Shown in pieces: positions 3,970-20,451 of a stretch of 23,098 nt of DNA; within the stretch, counting starts at the first letter, position 1, and each line of letters opens with the position of its first letter. The notes beneath the pieces were generated by a model. The model was not told the DNA's origin. It was given only the letters and a program-made list of their open reading frames with translations, and did not search any database. The position numbers and the translations under genes were made by a program. Origin of the DNA: a virus; the IMG/VR virus record IMGVR_UViG_3300032331_003052, positions 1 to 23,098 of that record; one strand, given 5' to 3'.

Positions 3970-4812
3970 ATGACACAAAATATAGACTTACTAAAAGAAG
4001 TTCTTAGCATCCCTAGTAAAACATACAGAGAAGACCTTATGGTTGAATTCTTGGTTAATTGGTTGACTGAGAATAATATCGAACACTACGTGGATGAACA
4101 TAAAAATGTTTATGCGACAAAACAAGAAAGTCCTCTTGTTTCCGAAGACTTTTATTTCCCATTAGTAATTGCTCACACAGACACAGTACACGAGATTGAA
4201 GGTATTTTTATTCAGGAAGAACAACTACCTAACGCTCAAGGACAAATTAAAGATGCGTTAAAGGCTTACAATGCTTTGGGCAATCCAACAGGAATTGGTG
4301 GTGATGATAAGTGTGGTGTTTTTGCTTGTTTAACATTACTTAAAGAATTACCATATTTGAAAGCATCATTCTTTGTTTCTGAAGAAACTGGATGTCATGG
4401 GTCAAAAAAGGCTGACGAAAGATTTTTTACAAATGTTGGATATGGAATCCAATTTGATGCACCAGAAAACTGGATGATTACCGAAAAATGTTTTGGTCAA
4501 ATCTTATTTGATAGAGAAAGTGAATTCTTTGAAAAAATTGACCAAGTATTAACTGAAGGTATGGTCAGAGAGGATATGCAATATATGGTTCACCCATACA
4601 CTGATGTTTATGCTTTGAGAAATAAATTTGATTTTTCTTGTATCAATTTTTCAATCGGATATTACGATTATCATACCAAGAATGAATATGTTGTTATTGA
4701 AGACGTATTCAATGGAATTGAAATGGGTAGAAAAATGATTAATGGGTTAGGTTATAAATTACATTTTAAAAAATCTGTACCGTACGACCCAATGAAAAGA
4801 TATACTATATAA
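3970..4812 (+). CDS. M20-family metallopeptidase-like protein, compact
   Basis: The protein (280 residues) keeps the dizinc peptidase site of the M20 family (peptidase T, carboxypeptidase G2 and relatives) in order: HTDTVH with ligand H69 and catalytic D71, GGDDKCG with bridging D112, SEETG with general base E138 and ligand E139, QFDAPEN with ligand D163, and YHTKNEYV with ligand H235. The reaction would be zinc-dependent hydrolysis of a small peptide or amino-acyl bond in the cytoplasm; the substrate is unknown. M20 enzymes are usually 370-450 residues with an inserted dimerisation/lid domain between the fourth and fifth ligands. Here that interval is about 70 residues, so the lid is mostly missing, as in M28-like or minimal forms. 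It has its own promoter and a terminator-like hairpin at 4845-4889. Its last 8 bp overlap the convergent metallopeptidase gene. Confidence 0.85.
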   Translation: MTQNIDLLKEVLSIPSKTYREDLMVEFLVNWLTENNIEHYVDEHKNVYATKQESPLVSEDFYFPLVIAHTDTVHEIEGIFIQEEQLPNAQGQIKDALKAYNALGNPTGIGGDDKCGVFACLTLLKELPYLKASFFVSEETGCHGSKKADERFFTNVGYGIQFDAPENWMITEKCFGQILFDRESEFFEKIDQVLTEGMVREDMQYMVHPYTDVYALRNKFDFSCINFSIGYYDYHTKNEYVVIEDVFNGIEMGRKMINGLGYKLHFKKSVPYDPMKRYTI

Positions 4813-5473
4813 AATTCTCTAGTTTATCAATATGACGTTTAACCATCGGGTGGTCTTGAATATCAGTAAATTCGCCACCCGATTTTTTTATCTGTATAAT
4901 GCTCTTCACAATTTGTTCTAAATGTGAAGTAACCATTTTAGACATGGATGGGTAATTTTCTATATAACCTGATAATTTAAAGTTATTTTTGGCAATGTCT
5001 AATGGTATATCTAACTTGATTATAAGTTTAGCAACCATTTCTTTTGCGAATCGGTCAGCATCCATTTCCATTTCCCAGTATTGTTCTGATAGGTTCTCAA
5101 AATCTTCTAAGTCATAATCAGTTAAAGGATTGTCCATTTTAAGGTCACGAATTTGTTCTTCGTGCCTTATTTCATGAAATATAGTGTATAGGAAATCTCC
5201 AAGAGTTGCCATAAAGCTTGGAGAACAAATTATTATTTGGTCTCTTGTTCTAACACCAGAAAATCCTGCAGAACAAGAATTAAGAAATTTGACTGTAAAA
5301 TTATGGTCTTTAATATAATCAACAACAAATTCACCAATAGCATCAACTTTTGATTTTAATTCGTCAGGAAATGTAGTTTTAAATTGGTATAATAGTCTAT
5401 TTAGATTTGATTGAGGAATAGGTTCATCACCCTCAATAGTTTCTCTAATCAATCTTTTAATCAAATCTTTCAT
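4805..5473 (-). CDS. Predicted zinc metallopeptidase (HExxH)
   Basis: The 222-residue protein carries HEIRHEEQ at residues 100-107, the HExxH zinc motif preceded by a hydrophobic helix (DFLYTIF). About 30 residues later comes EMEMDADRFAKEM (134-146), whose Glu/Asp residues can supply the third zinc ligand, as in the ImmA/IrrE and related gluzincin-like families (E..AD.FA). The N-terminus (KDLIKRLIRETI) is a basic amphipathic helix. There is no signal peptide or membrane segment, so it is probably cytoplasmic. No DNA-binding partner gene of the ImmR type is adjacent, so a repressor-cleaving role is not supported. The ATG at 5471-5473 follows a TATTTATA box. The gene lies directly downstream of the ClpC terminator and converges on the M20 gene. 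Confidence 0.7.
   Translation of the reverse strand: MKDLIKRLIRETIEGDEPIPQSNLNRLLYQFKTTFPDELKSKVDAIGEFVVDYIKDHNFTVKFLNSCSAGFSGVRTRDQIIICSPSFMATLGDFLYTIFHEIRHEEQIRDLKMDNPLTDYDLEDFENLSEQYWEMEMDADRFAKEMVAKLIIKLDIPLDIAKNNFKLSGYIENYPSMSKMVTSHLEQIVKSIIQIKKSGGEFTDIQDHPMVKRHIDKLENFI
4845..4889 (+). terminator. Terminator-like hairpin for the M20 gene, inside the opposing gene
   Basis: ATCGGGTGG (4845-4853) pairs perfectly with CCACCCGAT (4875-4883) and is followed by a T-run to 4889. It begins 33 nt past the M20 stop. The loop is 21 nt, longer than usual. It lies antisense within the 3' coding part of the HExxH gene. Confidence 0.45.
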
Positions 5474-5514: not shown

Positions 5515-7530
5515 TTATCTACCCTTCTTTTCAATTTTGACCGTATCATCTTCTACTTTTAATTTGTAGGATTTACCCTCAATCAATTTACCTGTAAGGA
5601 CCTCCTCAGATAATAAGTCTTCAATCTTATCTTGGATTGCTCTCTTTAATGGACGAGCTCCGTATAATTCATCAAAACCTATTTTAGCCAAGTAATCAAC
5701 AAGTGTTTCGTCGTAGGTAAGTTTGTATTTCATTTCATCTAAACGAGAAACTAATTTCTTAAGTTCAATCTCAGTGATTTTCTTAATGTCTTCAGGACTC
5801 AATGAATTGAATACAATAGTATCATCAATACGATTTAAGAACTCAGGAGAGAAGAAATTCTTCATTTCTTTCATCAATACTTGTTTCTTAGCTTCTTCAT
5901 TGCTGTAAGTACTAGAACCAAATCCAATACCTGTACCAAAGTCTTGTAACTTCTTAACACCTAAGTTTGAAGTTAAGATGATTAAGGTATTCTTGAAGTT
6001 AATTTTTCTACCTAAACTATCTGTAACGTGGCCGTCATCTAAGATTTGAAGTAAGATTGTGAATACATCTTTGTGAGCCTTTTCAACCTCATCAAATAAA
6101 ATTACTGAGTATGGTTTGTTTTTAACCTTTTCAGTTAATAATCCACCTTCTTCATATCCAACATATCCTGGAGGAGCTCCTACTAATTTAGATATTGAGT
6201 GTTTCTCTTGGTATTCAGACATATCCACACGGATAAGTGAATCTTCAGAGCCAAACATTTCTTTCGCTAATTGTTTGGCCAAGTAAGTTTTACCAACACC
6301 TGTTGAGCCTAAGAACACAAATGAACCAATTGGACGGTTAGGGTCTTTAATACCTAAACGGTTTCTTTTAATAGATTTTGCAATCTTAATAACTGCCGCA
6401 TCTTGACCAATAACTTTACCCATTAACTCTTTATCCAAGTTTAATAATGTTGACTTATCATCAACACTCATCTTATTAACAGGGATTTTGGTCATGTTAG
6501 ATACAACATCATATACATCTTCTACAGAAATTTTTTGTTTGTCTTTTTCCATAGCCTCTTCAAACTTACGTTTTTCAGAATCTAATTTGTCTAACAATTT
6601 CTTTTCCTTGTCTCGTAATTGAGCTGCTTGTTCGTAGTTTTGTTTTTTAACTACGTCTACTTTTTGTTGACGAATCTCAGCAGCCTTTCTTTTCAATTCC
6701 TCAATTGCTTCAGGAACCTTAAGTTCAGTTTGCATACGTGCCCCAACTTCATCCAAGATGTCAAATGCTTTATCAGGAAACTCACGGTCAGTAATATAAC
6801 GGTCAGCCAACTTAACACAAGTTTCGATAATTTCATCACTATATGTAACTTTATGATAAGACTCATACTTATCACGGACGTTTTTCAAGATTTGAATCGT
6901 CTCAACAACTGTAGATGGTTCAACAATTACTTTTTGGAATCTACGTTCCAACGCTCCATCTTTTTCAATGTTCTTACGGAACTCATCTAAAGTGGTTGCA
7001 CCAATCACTTGGATTTCGCCACGAGATAATGCAGGTTTAAAGATGTTTGAACCATCCATAGACCCTGATGAATTACCTGAACCTACAAGGGTATGGATTT
7101 CATCAATGAATACGATGATGTTAGGGTTAGCTTGAAGCTCCTCAATAATAACCTTCATTCTTTCTTCAAATTGACCACGGTATTTTGTACCAGCAACCAC
7201 AGAAGTTAAGTCAAGGTTTACAATTCTTTTATCCACCAAATTTCTTGGACAATCACCACTAATAATTTTCATTGCTAAACCCTCTACGATTGCGGTCTTA
7301 CCACAACCAGGTTCACCTAAGATAATAGGGTTATTTTTCTTTCTACGAGATATGATTTGAGCAATTCTCAAAATCTCTCTATCTCTACCAATAACAGGGT
7401 CTAACTTACCAGCCTCGGCTAATTTGTTTAAATCTCTACTGAAATTGTCTAATACAGGTGTACTACTATCTGATGATTGTTTTTGTTTCTTACTCATCAT
7501 TTTGTCGTCGTCATCCATTAAATCGTTCAT
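5515..7530 (-). CDS. clpC-like: ClpC-like AAA+ unfoldase lacking the Clp N-domain
   Basis: The protein (671 residues) is a class I Clp/Hsp100 ATPase with two AAA+ modules. D1 has Walker A GEPGCGKT (72-79), Walker B IVFIDE (139-144) and ALERRF with the arginine finger (193-198). A middle domain follows with a UVR motif (KKQNYEQAAQLRDKEKKL, 295-312), the mark of ClpC rather than ClpA or ClpB. D2 has Walker A GSTGVGKT (408-415), pore loop GYVGYE (455-460), Walker B VILFDE (476-481) and LTSN (519-522). An IGFG loop (535-538) sits where ClpC proteins dock on ClpP. The usual ~140-residue N-domain, which binds adaptors, is replaced by a short Asp/Lys-rich tail. The ATG at 7530 is preferred over an upstream in-frame TTG at 7560. 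No clpP lies in the window, so it would have to use host or distant phage ClpP. It is divergent from the UVR-motif gene. Confidence 0.92.
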   Translation of the reverse strand: MNDLMDDDDKMMSKKQKQSSDSSTPVLDNFSRDLNKLAEAGKLDPVIGRDREILRIAQIISRRKKNNPIILGEPGCGKTAIVEGLAMKIISGDCPRNLVDKRIVNLDLTSVVAGTKYRGQFEERMKVIIEELQANPNIIVFIDEIHTLVGSGNSSGSMDGSNIFKPALSRGEIQVIGATTLDEFRKNIEKDGALERRFQKVIVEPSTVVETIQILKNVRDKYESYHKVTYSDEIIETCVKLADRYITDREFPDKAFDILDEVGARMQTELKVPEAIEELKRKAAEIRQQKVDVVKKQNYEQAAQLRDKEKKLLDKLDSEKRKFEEAMEKDKQKISVEDVYDVVSNMTKIPVNKMSVDDKSTLLNLDKELMGKVIGQDAAVIKIAKSIKRNRLGIKDPNRPIGSFVFLGSTGVGKTYLAKQLAKEMFGSEDSLIRVDMSEYQEKHSISKLVGAPPGYVGYEEGGLLTEKVKNKPYSVILFDEVEKAHKDVFTILLQILDDGHVTDSLGRKINFKNTLIILTSNLGVKKLQDFGTGIGFGSSTYSNEEAKKQVLMKEMKNFFSPEFLNRIDDTIVFNSLSPEDIKKITEIELKKLVSRLDEMKYKLTYDETLVDYLAKIGFDELYGARPLKRAIQDKIEDLLSEEVLTGKLIEGKSYKLKVEDDTVKIEKKGR

Positions 7531-7546
7531 ATGTTTCTGTTTTTTA

Positions 7547-7578
7547 CAAAGTAATAACAAATTTTATACTTAACCAAA
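7547..7578 (-). promoter_or_regulatory. Candidate promoter of the ClpC-like gene
   Basis: On the - strand TTTG (7578-7575), a 20-nt spacer and TTACTTTG (7554-7547) match the Bacteroidetes promoter with one mismatch in the -7 box (TT for TA). It would leave a leader of roughly 10-15 nt before the ATG at 7530. The operator-like repeat at 7584-7596 lies just upstream of the TTTG. Confidence 0.35.
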
Positions 7579-7583
7579 TTATT

Positions 7584-7596
7584 TGACAAATTGTCA
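7584..7596. promoter_or_regulatory. Operator-like inverted repeat 1 (TGACAAATTGTCA)
   Basis: A perfect 6+1+6 inverted repeat in the 169-bp region between the divergent ClpC-like and UVR-motif genes. A near copy lies 31 bp away. This is the form of a dimeric repressor site. It is neither a CIRCE (HrcA) nor a CtsR site. Confidence 0.5.
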
Positions 7597-7614
7597 GTTT
7601 ATATTATATTTTAC

Positions 7615-7627
7615 TGACAAGATGTCG
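7615..7627. promoter_or_regulatory. Operator-like inverted repeat 2 (TGACAAGATGTCG)
   Basis: It matches the first site at TGACAA and TGTC, with an imperfect outer base. Start-to-start spacing is 31 bp, close to three helical turns, so proteins bound at both sites would face the same side of the DNA. Confidence 0.45.
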
Positions 7628-7699
7628 TAAACACTTGGTCGGCATTAAACTTGATAAGACAAAGATAAATAATAAAACTGAAAATAAAAAATTAAAATT

Positions 7700-8083
7700 A
7701 TGTTTGGAAACAGAAAAAACTACAACGACATGTTCAGATTATTTGATGAAATGTTTGAACAATTTAATTTAAACAATGGTGGGTGGAAAACTCAAACCAG
7801 AATGTCCGAAGACGGAACAACAAAAGTAACAACTCATTATTGGAGTAACGATACAGCAAATCCAAAATCAACTGGAGGTGTTGAAAGTTTGAAGGCTCAA
7901 CTTGAATATGCAATTGAAAACGAAGATTTTGAATTGGCGGTTAAGCTTAGAGACCAAATCAAAAGTTTGGAATCAAACCAAGAAGAAATCGACAAACTTG
8001 AATTGGAATTGAAAAAATCAATTAAGGAACAAAACTTTGAAAAGTCTATTGAGATTAGAGACCAATTGAAAAAATTAAAATAG
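7700..8083 (+). CDS. Small protein with two UVR motifs, possible ClpC partner
   Basis: This 127-residue protein has two tandem UVR motifs: residues 64-90 with NEDFELAVKLRDQIKSLE, and residues 101-127 with EQNFEKSIEIRDQLKKLK. UVR motifs occur in UvrB/UvrC, in the ClpC middle domain and in the ClpC adaptor/kinase activator McsA. Residues 1-60 are rich in Phe, Asn and Thr and contain no cysteine, so the McsA zinc fingers are absent. With a ClpC-like gene divergently next door and a possible shared operator region, a role as an adaptor or regulator of that unfoldase is a reasonable inference, not a demonstrated one. A UvrABC-related role is the main alternative, but no repair genes are near. A terminator follows the stop within 10 nt. 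Confidence 0.75.
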   Translation: MFGNRKNYNDMFRLFDEMFEQFNLNNGGWKTQTRMSEDGTTKVTTHYWSNDTANPKSTGGVESLKAQLEYAIENEDFELAVKLRDQIKSLESNQEEIDKLELELKKSIKEQNFEKSIEIRDQLKKLK

Positions 8084-8089
8084 TAATTA

Positions 8090-8116
8090 CCCTCACTTTG
8101 GTGGGGGTTTTATTTT
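8090..8116 (+). terminator. Rho-independent terminator after the UVR-motif gene
   Basis: CCCTCAC (8090-8096) pairs with GTGGGGG (8101-8107) across a 4-nt loop, with one T-G pair, followed by TTTTATTTT. The T-run overlaps the stop codon of the convergent sulfotransferase gene. Confidence 0.75.
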
Positions 8117-8769
8117 AAATAATTAAATTTAGTAAAGTCCTCGTCAAACAACTCTATAATTATATCTTTAATTTCAGGAGTTATTAAATCCATGTGGTTG
8201 TTTAAACCTTGAGAATTAATCATAGGTAATTTTTTAAGACTAATACCAAGGAAATTTTCTAGTTCGCTTATGTCTGTTGTTAAGTTTTCAAGTTTAAAAT
8301 ATTTTACATTTGCATCAATATTATCCCAACTAATTTGAGTGTCAAATAATCTACTGCCACCCCAATGTTCTCCACGTTTAATTGAACTATTAATAAATGA
8401 TGTGTCTCCATAAAAAGATTCAATAAAATTATTACTTTTTTTAGAATCTAATAGATGTTTTGAGAATTCTGTTAAATTAAAATTTTTGAAATTAGGATTA
8501 TAATTTTCGGGTATAATTCTGTTTTGATAAAAAAATGATGATACGTATCGATGATATGGATTTCTTGTAATTTGCATTATTTTGTATTCTGATAAATCAG
8601 TTACATTGTACAGGTCAATAATTTCACTTAGTCTTAAATGTATTTTAGGTAAACCCATTTTCAAATGTATTGAAAATACGTATTCAAATTGTTGTAATAA
8701 AGCTCGTATTGAATTTGATGCAGTTTTAGGGGGCATCAATATAATAAGTTTTTTGTTTTTAGAAATCAT
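8110..8769 (-). CDS. Sulfotransferase-family protein
   Basis: The protein (219 residues) has the two PAPS-binding signatures of Golgi-type and bacterial sulfotransferases. The 5'-phosphosulfate loop is MPPKTASNSIRALL (residues 12-25), with K15 and S18/S20. The 3'-phosphate segment is QITRNPYHRYVSSFFYQ (66-82), with the Arg and Ser of the RxPxxRxxSxF pattern. It should transfer sulfate from PAPS to a hydroxyl of a sugar or protein; the acceptor is unknown. There is no signal peptide, so it would act in the cytoplasm of the infected cell. The ATG at 8769 is chosen over a TTG at 8805 because it starts at MISKNKKLI, just before the first motif strand. Its ATG overlaps the last codons of the hydroxylase-like gene, so the two are probably translated together. 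Confidence 0.8.
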   Translation of the reverse strand: MISKNKKLIILMPPKTASNSIRALLQQFEYVFSIHLKMGLPKIHLRLSEIIDLYNVTDLSEYKIMQITRNPYHRYVSSFFYQNRIIPENYNPNFKNFNLTEFSKHLLDSKKSNNFIESFYGDTSFINSSIKRGEHWGGSRLFDTQISWDNIDANVKYFKLENLTTDISELENFLGISLKKLPMINSQGLNNHMDLITPEIKDIIIELFDEDFTKFNYLK

Positions 8770-9328
8770 ATTTTTTAAATAAAGATTCTTCAACCCAGTC
8801 AACAATCAAATGAATTCTGTCAGTGTCACCAAAATTGTCTACTGAGTGTTCTTTTTTGTCGTTATTTATTTCCCATAATTCACCAACCTTTAAATTTCTT
8901 TTGTCATCACCAACGGTAAAATAACATTCATCGTTAGTCTCTATCGGTATGTGAATTCTTCTACAAACAACCAAACTAAACCCTACAACGTCAACGTGAG
9001 GACGAATAGATTTTTTTGATGTAAGTTTTACCAGTAACGCTCTCATGATTTTACCTTCTTCTCCTGTATTCAATCTGATTTCATCTTCAATCTTACTAAT
9101 CTCATCTTTGAATAAAGGGTGATGATTGGTAGGTATAATTTTTAAATGTTGAAAATTAAAAGATTTATCAAAAATTATTGGTATTGTTTTGGTATGTAAA
9201 TGTTCTGTTCCTGGTTTATTTTGTCGAACCGTGTATTCGTCCCAACTTAAATTATTGTCTGAAATAATTTTAATGATTGGATTTACATCTATTTTACCAT
9301 GTAATAAAAAAGTATCTGTATTATTCAT
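8759..9328 (-). CDS. Aspartyl/asparaginyl beta-hydroxylase-like 2OG-Fe(II) oxygenase
   Basis: The protein (189 residues) matches the Asp/Asn beta-hydroxylase domain (PF05118). It has the iron-binding RPHVD (109-113: H111, D113), RRIHIPIETNDECYF (124-138), VGELWEINNDKKEHSVDN with distal ligand H161, and DRIHLIVDW with R171, which would hold 2-oxoglutarate. The reaction would be hydroxylation of an Asp, Asn or similar side chain with 2-oxoglutarate and O2. Bacterial relatives act on proteins or lipids, and the substrate here is unknown. The ATG at 9328 is chosen over an upstream in-frame start at 9397, which would extend through the neighbouring gene. Only 10 bp separate this start from the divergent gene at 9339. 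It overlaps the sulfotransferase gene by 11 bp. Confidence 0.82.
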   Translation of the reverse strand: MNNTDTFLLHGKIDVNPIIKIISDNNLSWDEYTVRQNKPGTEHLHTKTIPIIFDKSFNFQHLKIIPTNHHPLFKDEISKIEDEIRLNTGEEGKIMRALLVKLTSKKSIRPHVDVVGFSLVVCRRIHIPIETNDECYFTVGDDKRNLKVGELWEINNDKKEHSVDNFGDTDRIHLIVDWVEESLFKKYDF

Positions 9329-9335
9329 ATTTATA
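9328..9335. promoter_or_regulatory. TATTTATA / TATAAATA box between divergent genes
   Basis: It reads TATTTATA on + and TATAAATA, the T4 late-promoter core, on -. It fills most of the 10-bp gap between the start codons of the hydroxylase-like gene (-) and the 111-residue gene (+). Confidence 0.35.
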
Positions 9336-9338
9336 ATT

Positions 9339-9674
9339 ATGAAACCATTTGAAAAATTTTTAGAAAGTAGTGTCACTATGAGAGAATTACTAGACAATTA
9401 CCTTGAATTAAGGTTACATCTTCAAGAAGAGGGATTTAGTCAAGAACAATTGAGCAGGTTTATGCAACCCACAATCAAGATGATGACATTACGTGAAAAG
9501 TTTACTAACAAAAAAAATGCTTTATTTAGACAAATTAAAGATTATGGTTTTGACGTGACTAGCGATGAATTAAATGGATACATTTTACCATTGTTGTCTA
9601 AAATTGATGATATAACACCTTTAAATAATGGCAATAACGAAAGAAGAAATCAAGGGGACGAAGATTTTGAATGA
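9339..9674 (+). CDS. Hypothetical small helical protein
   Basis: This 111-residue protein is not recognised. It starts MKPFEKFLESS and is mostly charged and helical, with EEGFSQEQLSRFMQPTIKMM (residues 30-50) and a polar Asn/Glu-rich end. There is no cysteine and no membrane segment. ATG 9339 follows the TATTTATA box. An extended in-frame start at 9189 would read through the opposing hydroxylase gene and give a hydrophobic, atypical N-terminus, so I rejected it; ATG 9378 is a possible later start. The 3' end overlaps the KTSC gene by 47 bp in another frame. Confidence 0.65.
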   Translation: MKPFEKFLESSVTMRELLDNYLELRLHLQEEGFSQEQLSRFMQPTIKMMTLREKFTNKKNALFRQIKDYGFDVTSDELNGYILPLLSKIDDITPLNNGNNERRNQGDEDFE

Positions 9675-10670: not shown

Positions 10671-12053
10671 ATGGCATTAGTTACATATCTTATAGGTCCT
10701 TGCGCTGGCGGAGCTTCAATATTAGTTGATTTTGATAGTTCATCCTTACCCGCGGTTAATGGAAATTATTATTTAACCTTTACTGGTGGAACAACCCCTG
10801 GATGTTATGATATTATCGATAATGCCGAACCATCAACTGGAATTGACAAAGTATTAACTATGTCAATAGATTATACTGATTGTGCTACTTGCCAAGCTAT
10901 TGTAACTCCAACACCAACAGTAACAACAACTCAAACTAAAACGCCAACACCAACAGGAACTGCAAGTGTAACATCTACACCAACACAGACAGGAACTGCA
11001 GGAGTAACTCCAACACCATCAACAACACCAACTAATACTCCAACAAATACTTTAACACCAACAGTAACAACAACTCAAACTCAAACATCAACACCAACAG
11101 GAACTGCAAGTGTAACATCTACACCAACAGGAACTGCAAGTGTAACATCTACACCAACACCAACTAATACATCAACTCCAACTAATACACCAACTATATC
11201 TGTTACACCAAGTAATACACCTAATGTTTGTAAAACATATGAATTATACGGTGGAACTGATGGTACAACATTTGTTGGTAAAGATTGCAATGGTTTTACA
11301 TTTAATATACCAGTTCAACCATACAATACAACAATAGTATGTGCGAAAGAAGTATTTGTAGTTCAAGGAAATGGATATTATGTTTCAATAGGGTCGTGTC
11401 CATTACCAACACCAACACCATCGGTAACTTCAAGTGTTACTCCAACAAACACATCAACACCAACTAACACTCCGACAAATACTACAACAAACACATCAAC
11501 ACCAACTAACACTGCAACCAATACATCAACGCCAACACCAACCAATACATCAACGCCAACTAACACTGCGACCAAAACCTCTACACCAACGCCAACAAAT
11601 ACTGCAACGCCAACAAATACTGCAACTAATACACCTTCAGTTACACCAACAAATACAGGTACACCAACAGTTACACCAACAAATACAGGTACTCCAACAG
11701 TTACACCGACAAATACAGGTACACCAACAGTTACACCGACAAATACAGGTACGCCAGCGGCTACACCAACTCAAACAGGTACACCAGCGGTTACACCAAC
11801 AAAAACAGCTACTCCAACTCCAACAGGTACACCAGCTGTTACACCAACACCATCACAAACACCAGGATTTACAGGATTTTCTGCAGACCAACAATACGCT
11901 TACACTCTTGAGATTTTAGGAAGTTTCAGTGGTGGAAGTGCAGATTTTAGTGGAGCATACGCACCGCACCCTGTATTTACAAATGAATTAGGTGAGGCAG
12001 TACAACAATTAAACGCAATCACAATAGGTGGATTTAACGGATTAAATAATTAA
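10671..12053 (+). CDS. Thr/Pro-repeat protein, probable virion surface component
   Basis: The protein (460 residues) alternates small domains with long Thr/Pro/Asn/Ser linkers. An N-terminal domain (1-78) has cysteines at 11, 45, 71 and 74. A first TPT-rich linker (79-183) follows, then a central domain (about 184-246, starting [11 protein letters not shown] and ending SIGSCPL), a second linker (247-400) with 10-residue repeats of the [10 protein letters not shown] type, and a C-terminal domain (from [13 protein letters not shown]) rich in Gly, Ser and Asn. Such stiff, extended linkers are typical of surface-exposed fibre or decoration proteins. There is no signal peptide for host export. It lies upstream of the packaging genes and has its own TATTTATT box. 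The linkers could also be glycosylated; no evidence for that is visible. Confidence 0.75.
11641..11820 (+). repeat. 30-bp coding tandem repeat, six units
   Basis: Six consecutive 30-bp units (11641, 11671, 11701, 11731, 11761 and 11791) encode variants of [10 protein letters not shown]. The first four differ mainly at third codon positions (CCA/CCG, ACA/ACT), and the last two have diverged further. Less regular TPT-coding repeats extend over 10906-11220 and 11401-11860. Confidence 0.85.
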
Positions 12054-19485: not shown

Positions 19486-20193
19486 ATGAGCAAAATGACC
19501 TTCGGAACCATAAAATCCATAATCGAGAACAATCTTCTTGAATCTTACAAAGACGAGAAAGAATTTAAGAAGTCTTTACGAGAATTCAAACACAACGTAT
19601 TGAGTGATAAATCTATGTCAAAAGCATATGCATTATATGACCAATTGAGTTCTGCACAAGGTCTTTCAGAAGAAACAGCCAAAGAATATTTGGAAGAAGG
19701 AGTTAATTTACTACAAAAAATATTACCAAATATTAGATTGCCAAAATCATCATCAAAAAATGTTAATAACAAATATTCTGATATTGATGCACTTGTTTAT
19801 ACAAACAAATTAGATTTATTAGAAAGAATCCAAGCAAAAAAGAATATTGTTTCATTATTAACATCTGCCAATAATGTGGTTAAAGAATCTATTAATATTC
19901 CTGTTAAATCAATGGTTAGCATTGCAAATCAAACTTTAAGAAATTATATTGATACTTTGGATGAAAATTCTAAAAAAGAATTTTTACAATTAATATCGGA
20001 GGATACAAAATCTCTTGAGACTAAGTTTGAAACAATTCGTGAAAGTGCTATTAAAAAACTACAAACAATTTTAGAAAAAGAAGAAGAGTTTGAACTTAAA
20101 ACAAAATTGTCAGAAACAATTGACAAATTAAAAATTGAGAAGTTCGACCAAATGAATTTTATACGATTAAAAAATCTTGAAGAATCAATTTAA
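19486..20193 (+). CDS. Helical protein in the T4 gp67/gp68 position
   Basis: This 235-residue protein is almost entirely charged helix (KEFKKSLREFKHNVLSD, 24-40; LQTILEKEEEFELKTKLSET, about 195-214) without a recognised domain. It lies between the portal and the prohead protease, where T4 has the prohead core genes 67 and 68. A core or scaffold-associated role is therefore suggested by position alone. ATG 19486 is chosen over an in-frame TTG at 19480 that lies within the TATTTATT box. Its last codons form the upstream arm of a terminator, and the gene overlaps the convergent bS21 gene by 9 bp. Confidence 0.75.
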   Translation: MSKMTFGTIKSIIENNLLESYKDEKEFKKSLREFKHNVLSDKSMSKAYALYDQLSSAQGLSEETAKEYLEEGVNLLQKILPNIRLPKSSSKNVNNKYSDIDALVYTNKLDLLERIQAKKNIVSLLTSANNVVKESINIPVKSMVSIANQTLRNYIDTLDENSKKEFLQLISEDTKSLETKFETIRESAIKKLQTILEKEEEFELKTKLSETIDKLKIEKFDQMNFIRLKNLEESI

Positions 20194-20210
20194 TTGATTC
20201 TTCTTTTTTT
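20179..20210 (+). terminator. Strong terminator overlapping the ends of two convergent genes
   Basis: GAAGAATCAATT (20179-20190) and AATTGATTCTTC (20192-20203) form a perfect 12-bp inverted repeat, followed by seven Ts. Stop codons of the + gene (20191-20193) and of bS21 (20185-20187) lie within it. On the - strand the same hairpin is followed by AAGATTTTTT, so it may work both ways. Confidence 0.85.
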
Positions 20211-20376
20211 GTATATAAATTGCTTTTAAAAGTTTTGTTCTTTTTACTACAGACGGTTTTATAAATTCTTTTCTTTCTTGTAATTTTTGAGTTTGTTTAG
20301 TCTTAATAACTTTAGATTTCAAAGTCTTTAGAGCCCTCTCAAGGTTTTCATTATTTTTAATTTCTACTACTATCAT
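20185..20376 (-). CDS. rpsU: Ribosomal protein bS21, phage-encoded
   Basis: The protein (63 residues) matches bS21 along its length: MIVVEIKNNENLERALKTLK at the start, KTKQTQKLQERKEFIKPSV in the middle and KRTKLLKAIYIQ near the end. The AIYIQ segment, with Tyr at 54, is the Bacteroidetes-type ending; E. coli S21 ends with a longer Arg-rich tail. bS21 sits on the 30S platform near the 16S 3' end, and in Flavobacterium it helps hide the anti-Shine-Dalgarno sequence. A phage copy could replace the host protein and change which mRNAs initiate. ATG 20376 is chosen over TTG 20385 because it gives the canonical MIVV start. No Shine-Dalgarno sequence precedes it. It is the only - strand gene inside the head module. 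Phage-encoded bS21 is known from other large and marine phages. Confidence 0.92.
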   Translation of the reverse strand: MIVVEIKNNENLERALKTLKSKVIKTKQTQKLQERKEFIKPSVVKRTKLLKAIYIQKKKNQLN

Positions 20377-20451
20377 ATTATACAAATATCTTATTTTATA
20401 AAAATTTTGACATTAATGGTTATATGTGTTATTTTTTAATAAACAAATAAA

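Follow-up and report, generated by a model that had tools for sequence, protein, structure and literature searches.

A phage ClpC without the N-domain, its exchangeable chaperone neighbours, and a likely host-type sigma-54 heat-shock promoter between them

The stretch of DNA analyzed here (the window, 23,098 nucleotides) represents part of the genome of a large phage of Bacteroidota and includes genes for terminase, portal, and prohead protease. Between the last two, on the reverse strand, lies a gene for ribosomal protein S21 (20185–20385; PF01165, E 4e-12). According to the accessible parts of the report on bS21 phages, a reverse-strand S21 gene among the head genes is the signature of that group (PMC9723584), and we group the phage with them because the window shares this arrangement; its hosts are likely Flavobacteriia. 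The same parts of that report mention chaperones and Clp protease, and in the moraphages, as far as the portion consulted goes, the Clp ATPase is core and DnaK, DnaJ, and Hsp20 are reported (PMC12619734). What is common to both groups and to the phage studied here, within the sections of the two papers at hand, is therefore a large Bacteroidota phage carrying a Clp ATPase/protease and chaperones. Elsewhere in the window, a threonine/proline-rich repeat protein (10671–12053) is a probable virion or adhesion component.

The locus described in this study consists of two divergent genes whose starts are 169 bp apart. The first (5515–7530, reverse strand) encodes a ClpC-like ATPase of 671 residues, made of AAA-1, a UVR M-domain, and AAA-2 with an IGF loop. 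The longest open reading frame (5515–7560) begins at a TTG, and since this TTG is located upstream of the predicted –7 box of the gene, the ATG at 7530 is the likely start. Pfam detects AAA, AAA_lid_9, AAA_2, and ClpB_D2-small, together with a weak UVR match, below the Pfam cut-off, at residues 281–312; Clp_N (PF02861) does not appear among the matches listed (the best 25 of 38 Pfam families). Residues 11–656 align to residues 147–793 of Staphylococcus aureus ClpC (E 1.4e-223), and as the alignment begins at residue 147 of the latter, the absent part is the N-domain. Clp_N was not found in the two longest phage ClpC relatives scanned either, and it is present in host Bacteroidota ClpCs. In comparison with ClpC of the Hsp100 class I (S. 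aureus and Bacillus subtilis, PDB 6em8 and 3j3t, and Bacteroidota), the phage protein thus shares the two AAA+ modules, the short UVR M-domain, the pore loops, the Walker motifs, and a ClpP-docking loop of the [ILV]G[FL] type, whereas it is encoded by a virus and, in the window protein and those two relatives, lacks the Clp_N double domain. The IGF tripeptide is found within FGTGIGFG (residues 531–538). Among 147 distinct phage ClpCs the loop reads IGF in 90, VGF in 52, and LGF in 1, with none in 1 and the sequence cut off in 3, and the Walker A/B motifs, arginine fingers, and pore loops are retained throughout, a few truncated rows excepted. Several INPHARED records named as Listeria or Staphylococcus phage (OR846854.1, OR848744.1, and similar) carry a ClpC of about 50% identity and look like bacterial contamination.

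Just downstream of clpC, the gene at 4805–5473 encodes a zincin-like HExxH motif (HEIRHEEQ) without a Pfam family, and it is adjoined by a gene with weak similarity to M20/M42 peptidases (3970–4812), so that three protease-related genes are consecutive. On the other side of the locus (8110–9397), sulfotransferase-like and aspartyl/asparaginyl hydroxylase-like genes occupy an accessory slot that varies among relatives.

The second gene of the pair (7700–8083, forward strand) encodes a protein of 127 residues in which PF02151 matches two stretches (E 2e-15). The UVR motif is common, by sequence comparison, to this protein, the ClpC M-domain, and McsA. Like McsA and the plastid proteins EXE1/2 and UVR2–4, which are small ClpC-associated proteins, the phage protein is built on the UVR motif; it differs from them in having two such motifs and no zinc fingers, and in an N-terminal helix and β-hairpin that match no known family. 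McsA-type zinc fingers are absent because the protein contains no cysteine at all, and no CxxC was seen by eye in 35 aligned relatives; its score on the NCBIfam McsA model is 41.3 bits, below the curated cut-off of 210, and, in a further difference from McsA, no McsB gene was seen adjoining the UVR gene. A structure model (mean pLDDT 66, modest confidence) predicts a helix at residues 8–20, a β-hairpin at 28–49, and, at 60–126, two helical hairpins formed by the UVR motifs; a fold search of this model against the PDB gave no match at E ≤ 0.001. No match was obtained among 50,697 phage records, and as to a chromosomal orthologue, the 20 weak matches of a genome scan, most of which cover the UVR part and none of which lies in a Bacteroidota-titled record, were discarded. 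The picture drawn in an earlier note, that of a ClpC that retains its two AAA+ modules, a UVR middle domain, and an IGFG loop, is devoid of its N-domain, and is flanked by a divergent 127-residue double-UVR protein without the zinc fingers of McsA, is therefore confirmed by the Pfam matches, the loop and S. aureus alignments, and the lack of cysteine.

The pairing of the two genes is conserved. A search with the UVR family retrieved 80 viral loci, 77 of them with room for a neighbour, and a divergent ClpC gene adjoins in all 77, which is more than chance; when loci were retrieved by ClpC only, the UVR gene fills the slot in 39 of the 78 with room. The conserved adjacency for which the earlier note had proposed a search is thus present, and so is the pairing implied by its idea of a dedicated partner; exclusivity is not, for many close relatives have Hsp20 or DnaK in the same slot, and UVR relatives additionally head dnaK operons. 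In the divergent slot of the 147 distinct ClpCs we count UVR 94 times, HSP20 22, DnaK 12, and none 19, figures that combine loci retrieved by UVR, DnaK, palindrome, and ClpC and are therefore not natural frequencies. Close relatives that lack the UVR gene there mostly have Hsp20 (PF00011), a few DnaK, and on the ClpC tree the partner switches about 20 times: the slot beside clpC is interchangeable among UVR, small heat-shock protein, and DnaK. At 12 dnaK-retrieved loci the UVR gene heads the dnaK operon, co-directional and a few bp upstream of dnaK; one phage (G006) has clpC near 103 kb and UVR-dnaK near 152 kb, and at one locus (L291) clpC, UVR, and dnaK are all adjacent.

These arrangements bear on what the UVR protein does. 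Since UVR relatives also belong to dnaK operons in phages whose clpC is located at another place, a general stress protein fits these cases as well as a ClpC adaptor does, and a co-chaperone, acting as a holdase or assisting DnaK, that is co-regulated with clpC and has no direct action on it has to be considered, mainly because of the exchange with Hsp20 and DnaK in one slot. The position directly ahead of dnaK in other phages points the same way, as does an N-terminal FxxxFDxMF helix that resembles the arm of small heat-shock proteins, although the similarity to Hsp20 extends over 14 aligned columns only and is not significant, and derivation of this N-terminus from Hsp20 was accordingly rejected. 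The co-chaperone reading does not account for a motif specifically common to the ClpC M-domain and McsA, nor for the fact that every UVR gene seen at a locus with room had Clp or DnaK beside it, and we regard it as rather unlikely.

What unites the UVR, hsp20, and dnaK genes is a shared promoter. The gap between clpC and the UVR gene contains two palindromes spaced 31 bp, TGACAAATTGTCA on the clpC-proximal side (7584–7596) and TGACAAGATGTCG on the UVR-proximal side (7615–7627, a position read from the sequence), the latter matching the consensus TGACA-N3-TGTCA at 9/10 positions. The whole window has three matches to this element, two of them in the gap, with 0.20 expected. Twelve nucleotides after palindrome 2 (7628–7639), a sigma-54-like –24/–12 promoter of the UVR gene, CGGCATTAAACTTGA (7640–7654, forward strand), was assigned from the sequence and from family statistics; it has the GG-N10-G spacing of such elements. 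For clpC itself, a Bacteroidota sigma-A-type promoter is predicted (7547–7578, reverse strand), with a –33 box TTTGG (7574–7578) and a –7 box TTACTTTG (7547–7554) that recur in relatives, and a sigma-54-like site on the clpC side was found in 0 of 139 cases at a score of at least 11.

Across the family, 9 or 10 of the 10 palindrome positions are matched in 68 of 87 distinct clpC upstream regions, and the element follows the partner rather than the ATPase, being present at 126 of the 128 loci that have a chaperone beside clpC versus 1 of the 19 that do not (147 ClpCs), so that clpC may need no such control. The palindrome and the sigma-54-like site occur in this order ahead of 89/95 UVR, 35/42 hsp20, and 32/60 dnaK genes versus 4/1942 others. 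The gaps between palindrome and –24 element are mostly of 12 bp (11–13), otherwise of 22–24, 31–35, or 42–45 bp, that is, whole helical turns. When viral contigs were scanned with tandem palindromes as the sole criterion, hsp20 genes with no ClpC neighbour detected came up in further phages, among them the AT-rich contigs L139, L144, L161, L164, L169, L171, L186, L195, L205, and L207. In the same scan, 40 of 78 loci had none of the listed chaperone genes beside them and were put aside, many being GC-richer and resembling unrelated repeats, and palindromes within coding genes of large phage genomes were left out as coding context. Non-coding palindromes near small genes of unknown function in three large phage genomes (L465, L467, L471) may mark further regulon members.

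A corresponding arrangement exists in the hosts. Sigma-54 control has been predicted in Bacteroidota for GroEL, GroES, DnaK, DnaJ, GrpE, IbpA, and COG0542 (PMC12316311). Among Bacteroidales records of PLSDB, the sigma-54 score reaches 12–13 out of 13 in 4/4 groES, 3/3 dnaK, and 4/7 hsp20 promoters, and a palindrome of at least 8/10 positions lies within 80 bp upstream in 9 of those 11, the hsp20 promoters being the subset selected by sigma-54 score, versus 2.9% of random windows. The corresponding binomial value, 7e-13, overstates independence, because the species are few and related. In the Bacteroidales, from which most of this promoter evidence comes (the likely phage hosts being Flavobacteriia), the palindromes are a degenerate version of the phage element, and the host clpC genes have the sigma-54 site and not the palindrome. 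No perfect copy of the palindrome occurs in about 150 kb of host DNA. Two host htpG sites (Bacteroides finegoldii and Phocaeicola) were dropped, as they overlap an apparent clpC terminator hairpin. Some PLSDB "plasmid" records (NZ_CP072187.1, NZ_OY725963.1, NC_022111.1, and similar) contain gyrA, ileS, and clpC and look like pieces of chromosome. The phage promoters thus have in common with the Bacteroidota regulon (PMC12316311) the –24/–12 elements on dnaK, groES, hsp20, and clp genes, and they differ in residing on a virus and in having strong, often tandem, phased palindromes. Against a sigma-54 reading stands the distance of 12 bp to the –24 element, unusually close for a classical enhancer site; taking both sides together, we consider it likely that the promoter is of the host sigma-54 heat-shock type. 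The activator is presumably encoded by the host, because no separate sigma-54 activator was seen in 20 large phage records: each has one PF00158 match, in a ClpC-sized open reading frame, and ClpC itself scores on PF00158.

A phage ClpP, the putative partner of the ATPase, is encoded by relatives, the window being too short to show clpP. The earlier note had suggested that the two proteins could redirect the host's ClpP in the course of infection, and the docking loop would allow it, as an IGF/VGF-type loop is kept in 143 of the 147 phage ClpCs (3 others are cut off) and the host loop is VGF. Nevertheless, a phage-encoded ClpP is present in 18 of the 20 large related records, which makes such redirection unnecessary and, in our view, very improbable. 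The Ser, His, and Asp catalytic motifs are intact in both phage ClpP sequences read, and one of the phages with their own ClpP (G014) has a UVR protein that shares 96% identity with that of the window.

It is very likely that the module serves protein quality control. The phage would make an N-domain-less ClpC and, from elsewhere in the genome, its own ClpP, as shown in relatives. Transcription of the partner gene would start at a promoter of the sigma-54 type preceded by phased palindromes, as at host Bacteroidota heat-shock genes, and the resemblance to these promoters suggests that the host activator would raise the partner when unfolded proteins build up upon infection or heat. The UVR helical hairpins would then pair with the corresponding hairpin in the M-domain of ClpC. 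In S. aureus ClpC the M-domain is repressive, its contacts holding the resting state, MecA relieves the repression by binding it, and deletion of the N-domain alone does not activate the enzyme (PMC5699869); plastid CLPC1, in turn, traps UVR-domain proteins (PMC8889267). From these precedents and the shared motif, we infer a direct action of the UVR protein on the M-domain, to which we give slightly less than an even chance. Such pairing would release ClpC from its head-to-head resting state, an effect that MecA has in Firmicutes and that would here need no N-domain, and the amphipathic N-terminal helix and β-hairpin of the UVR protein would aid the binding or recruitment of substrates. Relatives with Hsp20 or DnaK in the slot would supply ClpC(P) substrates by another route.

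The same M-domain contacts (PMC5699869), and the UVR M-domain that host ClpCs share, would also suit a UVR protein directed at full-length host ClpC, or an anti-adaptor that locks ClpC in its resting state, sparing phage proteins or blocking regulated proteolysis of the host. Its gene, however, adjoins the phage's own clpC and is exchanged with canonical chaperones, which favours helping over blocking proteostasis, and we hold this possibility, along with the purposes it would serve, to be improbable. On balance, we lean towards a ClpCP module made by the phage, in which the partner gene has joined the sigma-54 heat-shock regulon of the host and the UVR protein may act on the M-domain. More tentatively, we propose that in large Bacteroidota phages self-made ClpCP with swappable partners is plugged into the host sigma-54 circuit, the UVR protein being an activator of a new kind that works through the M-domain only and makes the N-domain dispensable.

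Beyond the Clp ATPase, the protease, the chaperones, and the S21 gene on the reverse strand among head genes, a trait common to the window and, in the part of that report consulted, to the bS21 phages (PMC9723584), the accessible portions of PMC12619734 and PMC9723584 contain no description of the UVR protein, a ClpC devoid of its N-domain, the swap of partners, or the control by sigma-54 and palindromes. We found no named activator for the sigma-54 heat-shock response in Bacteroidota, and TGACA-N3-TGTCA, phased to the –24 element, is proposed as its operator. The phage protein pair offers a minimal ClpC system in which the control of ClpC by M-domains alone may be studied. If the promoter reading holds, the locus would be a concrete case of a virus that reads the protein-stress state of its host through a host transcription factor.
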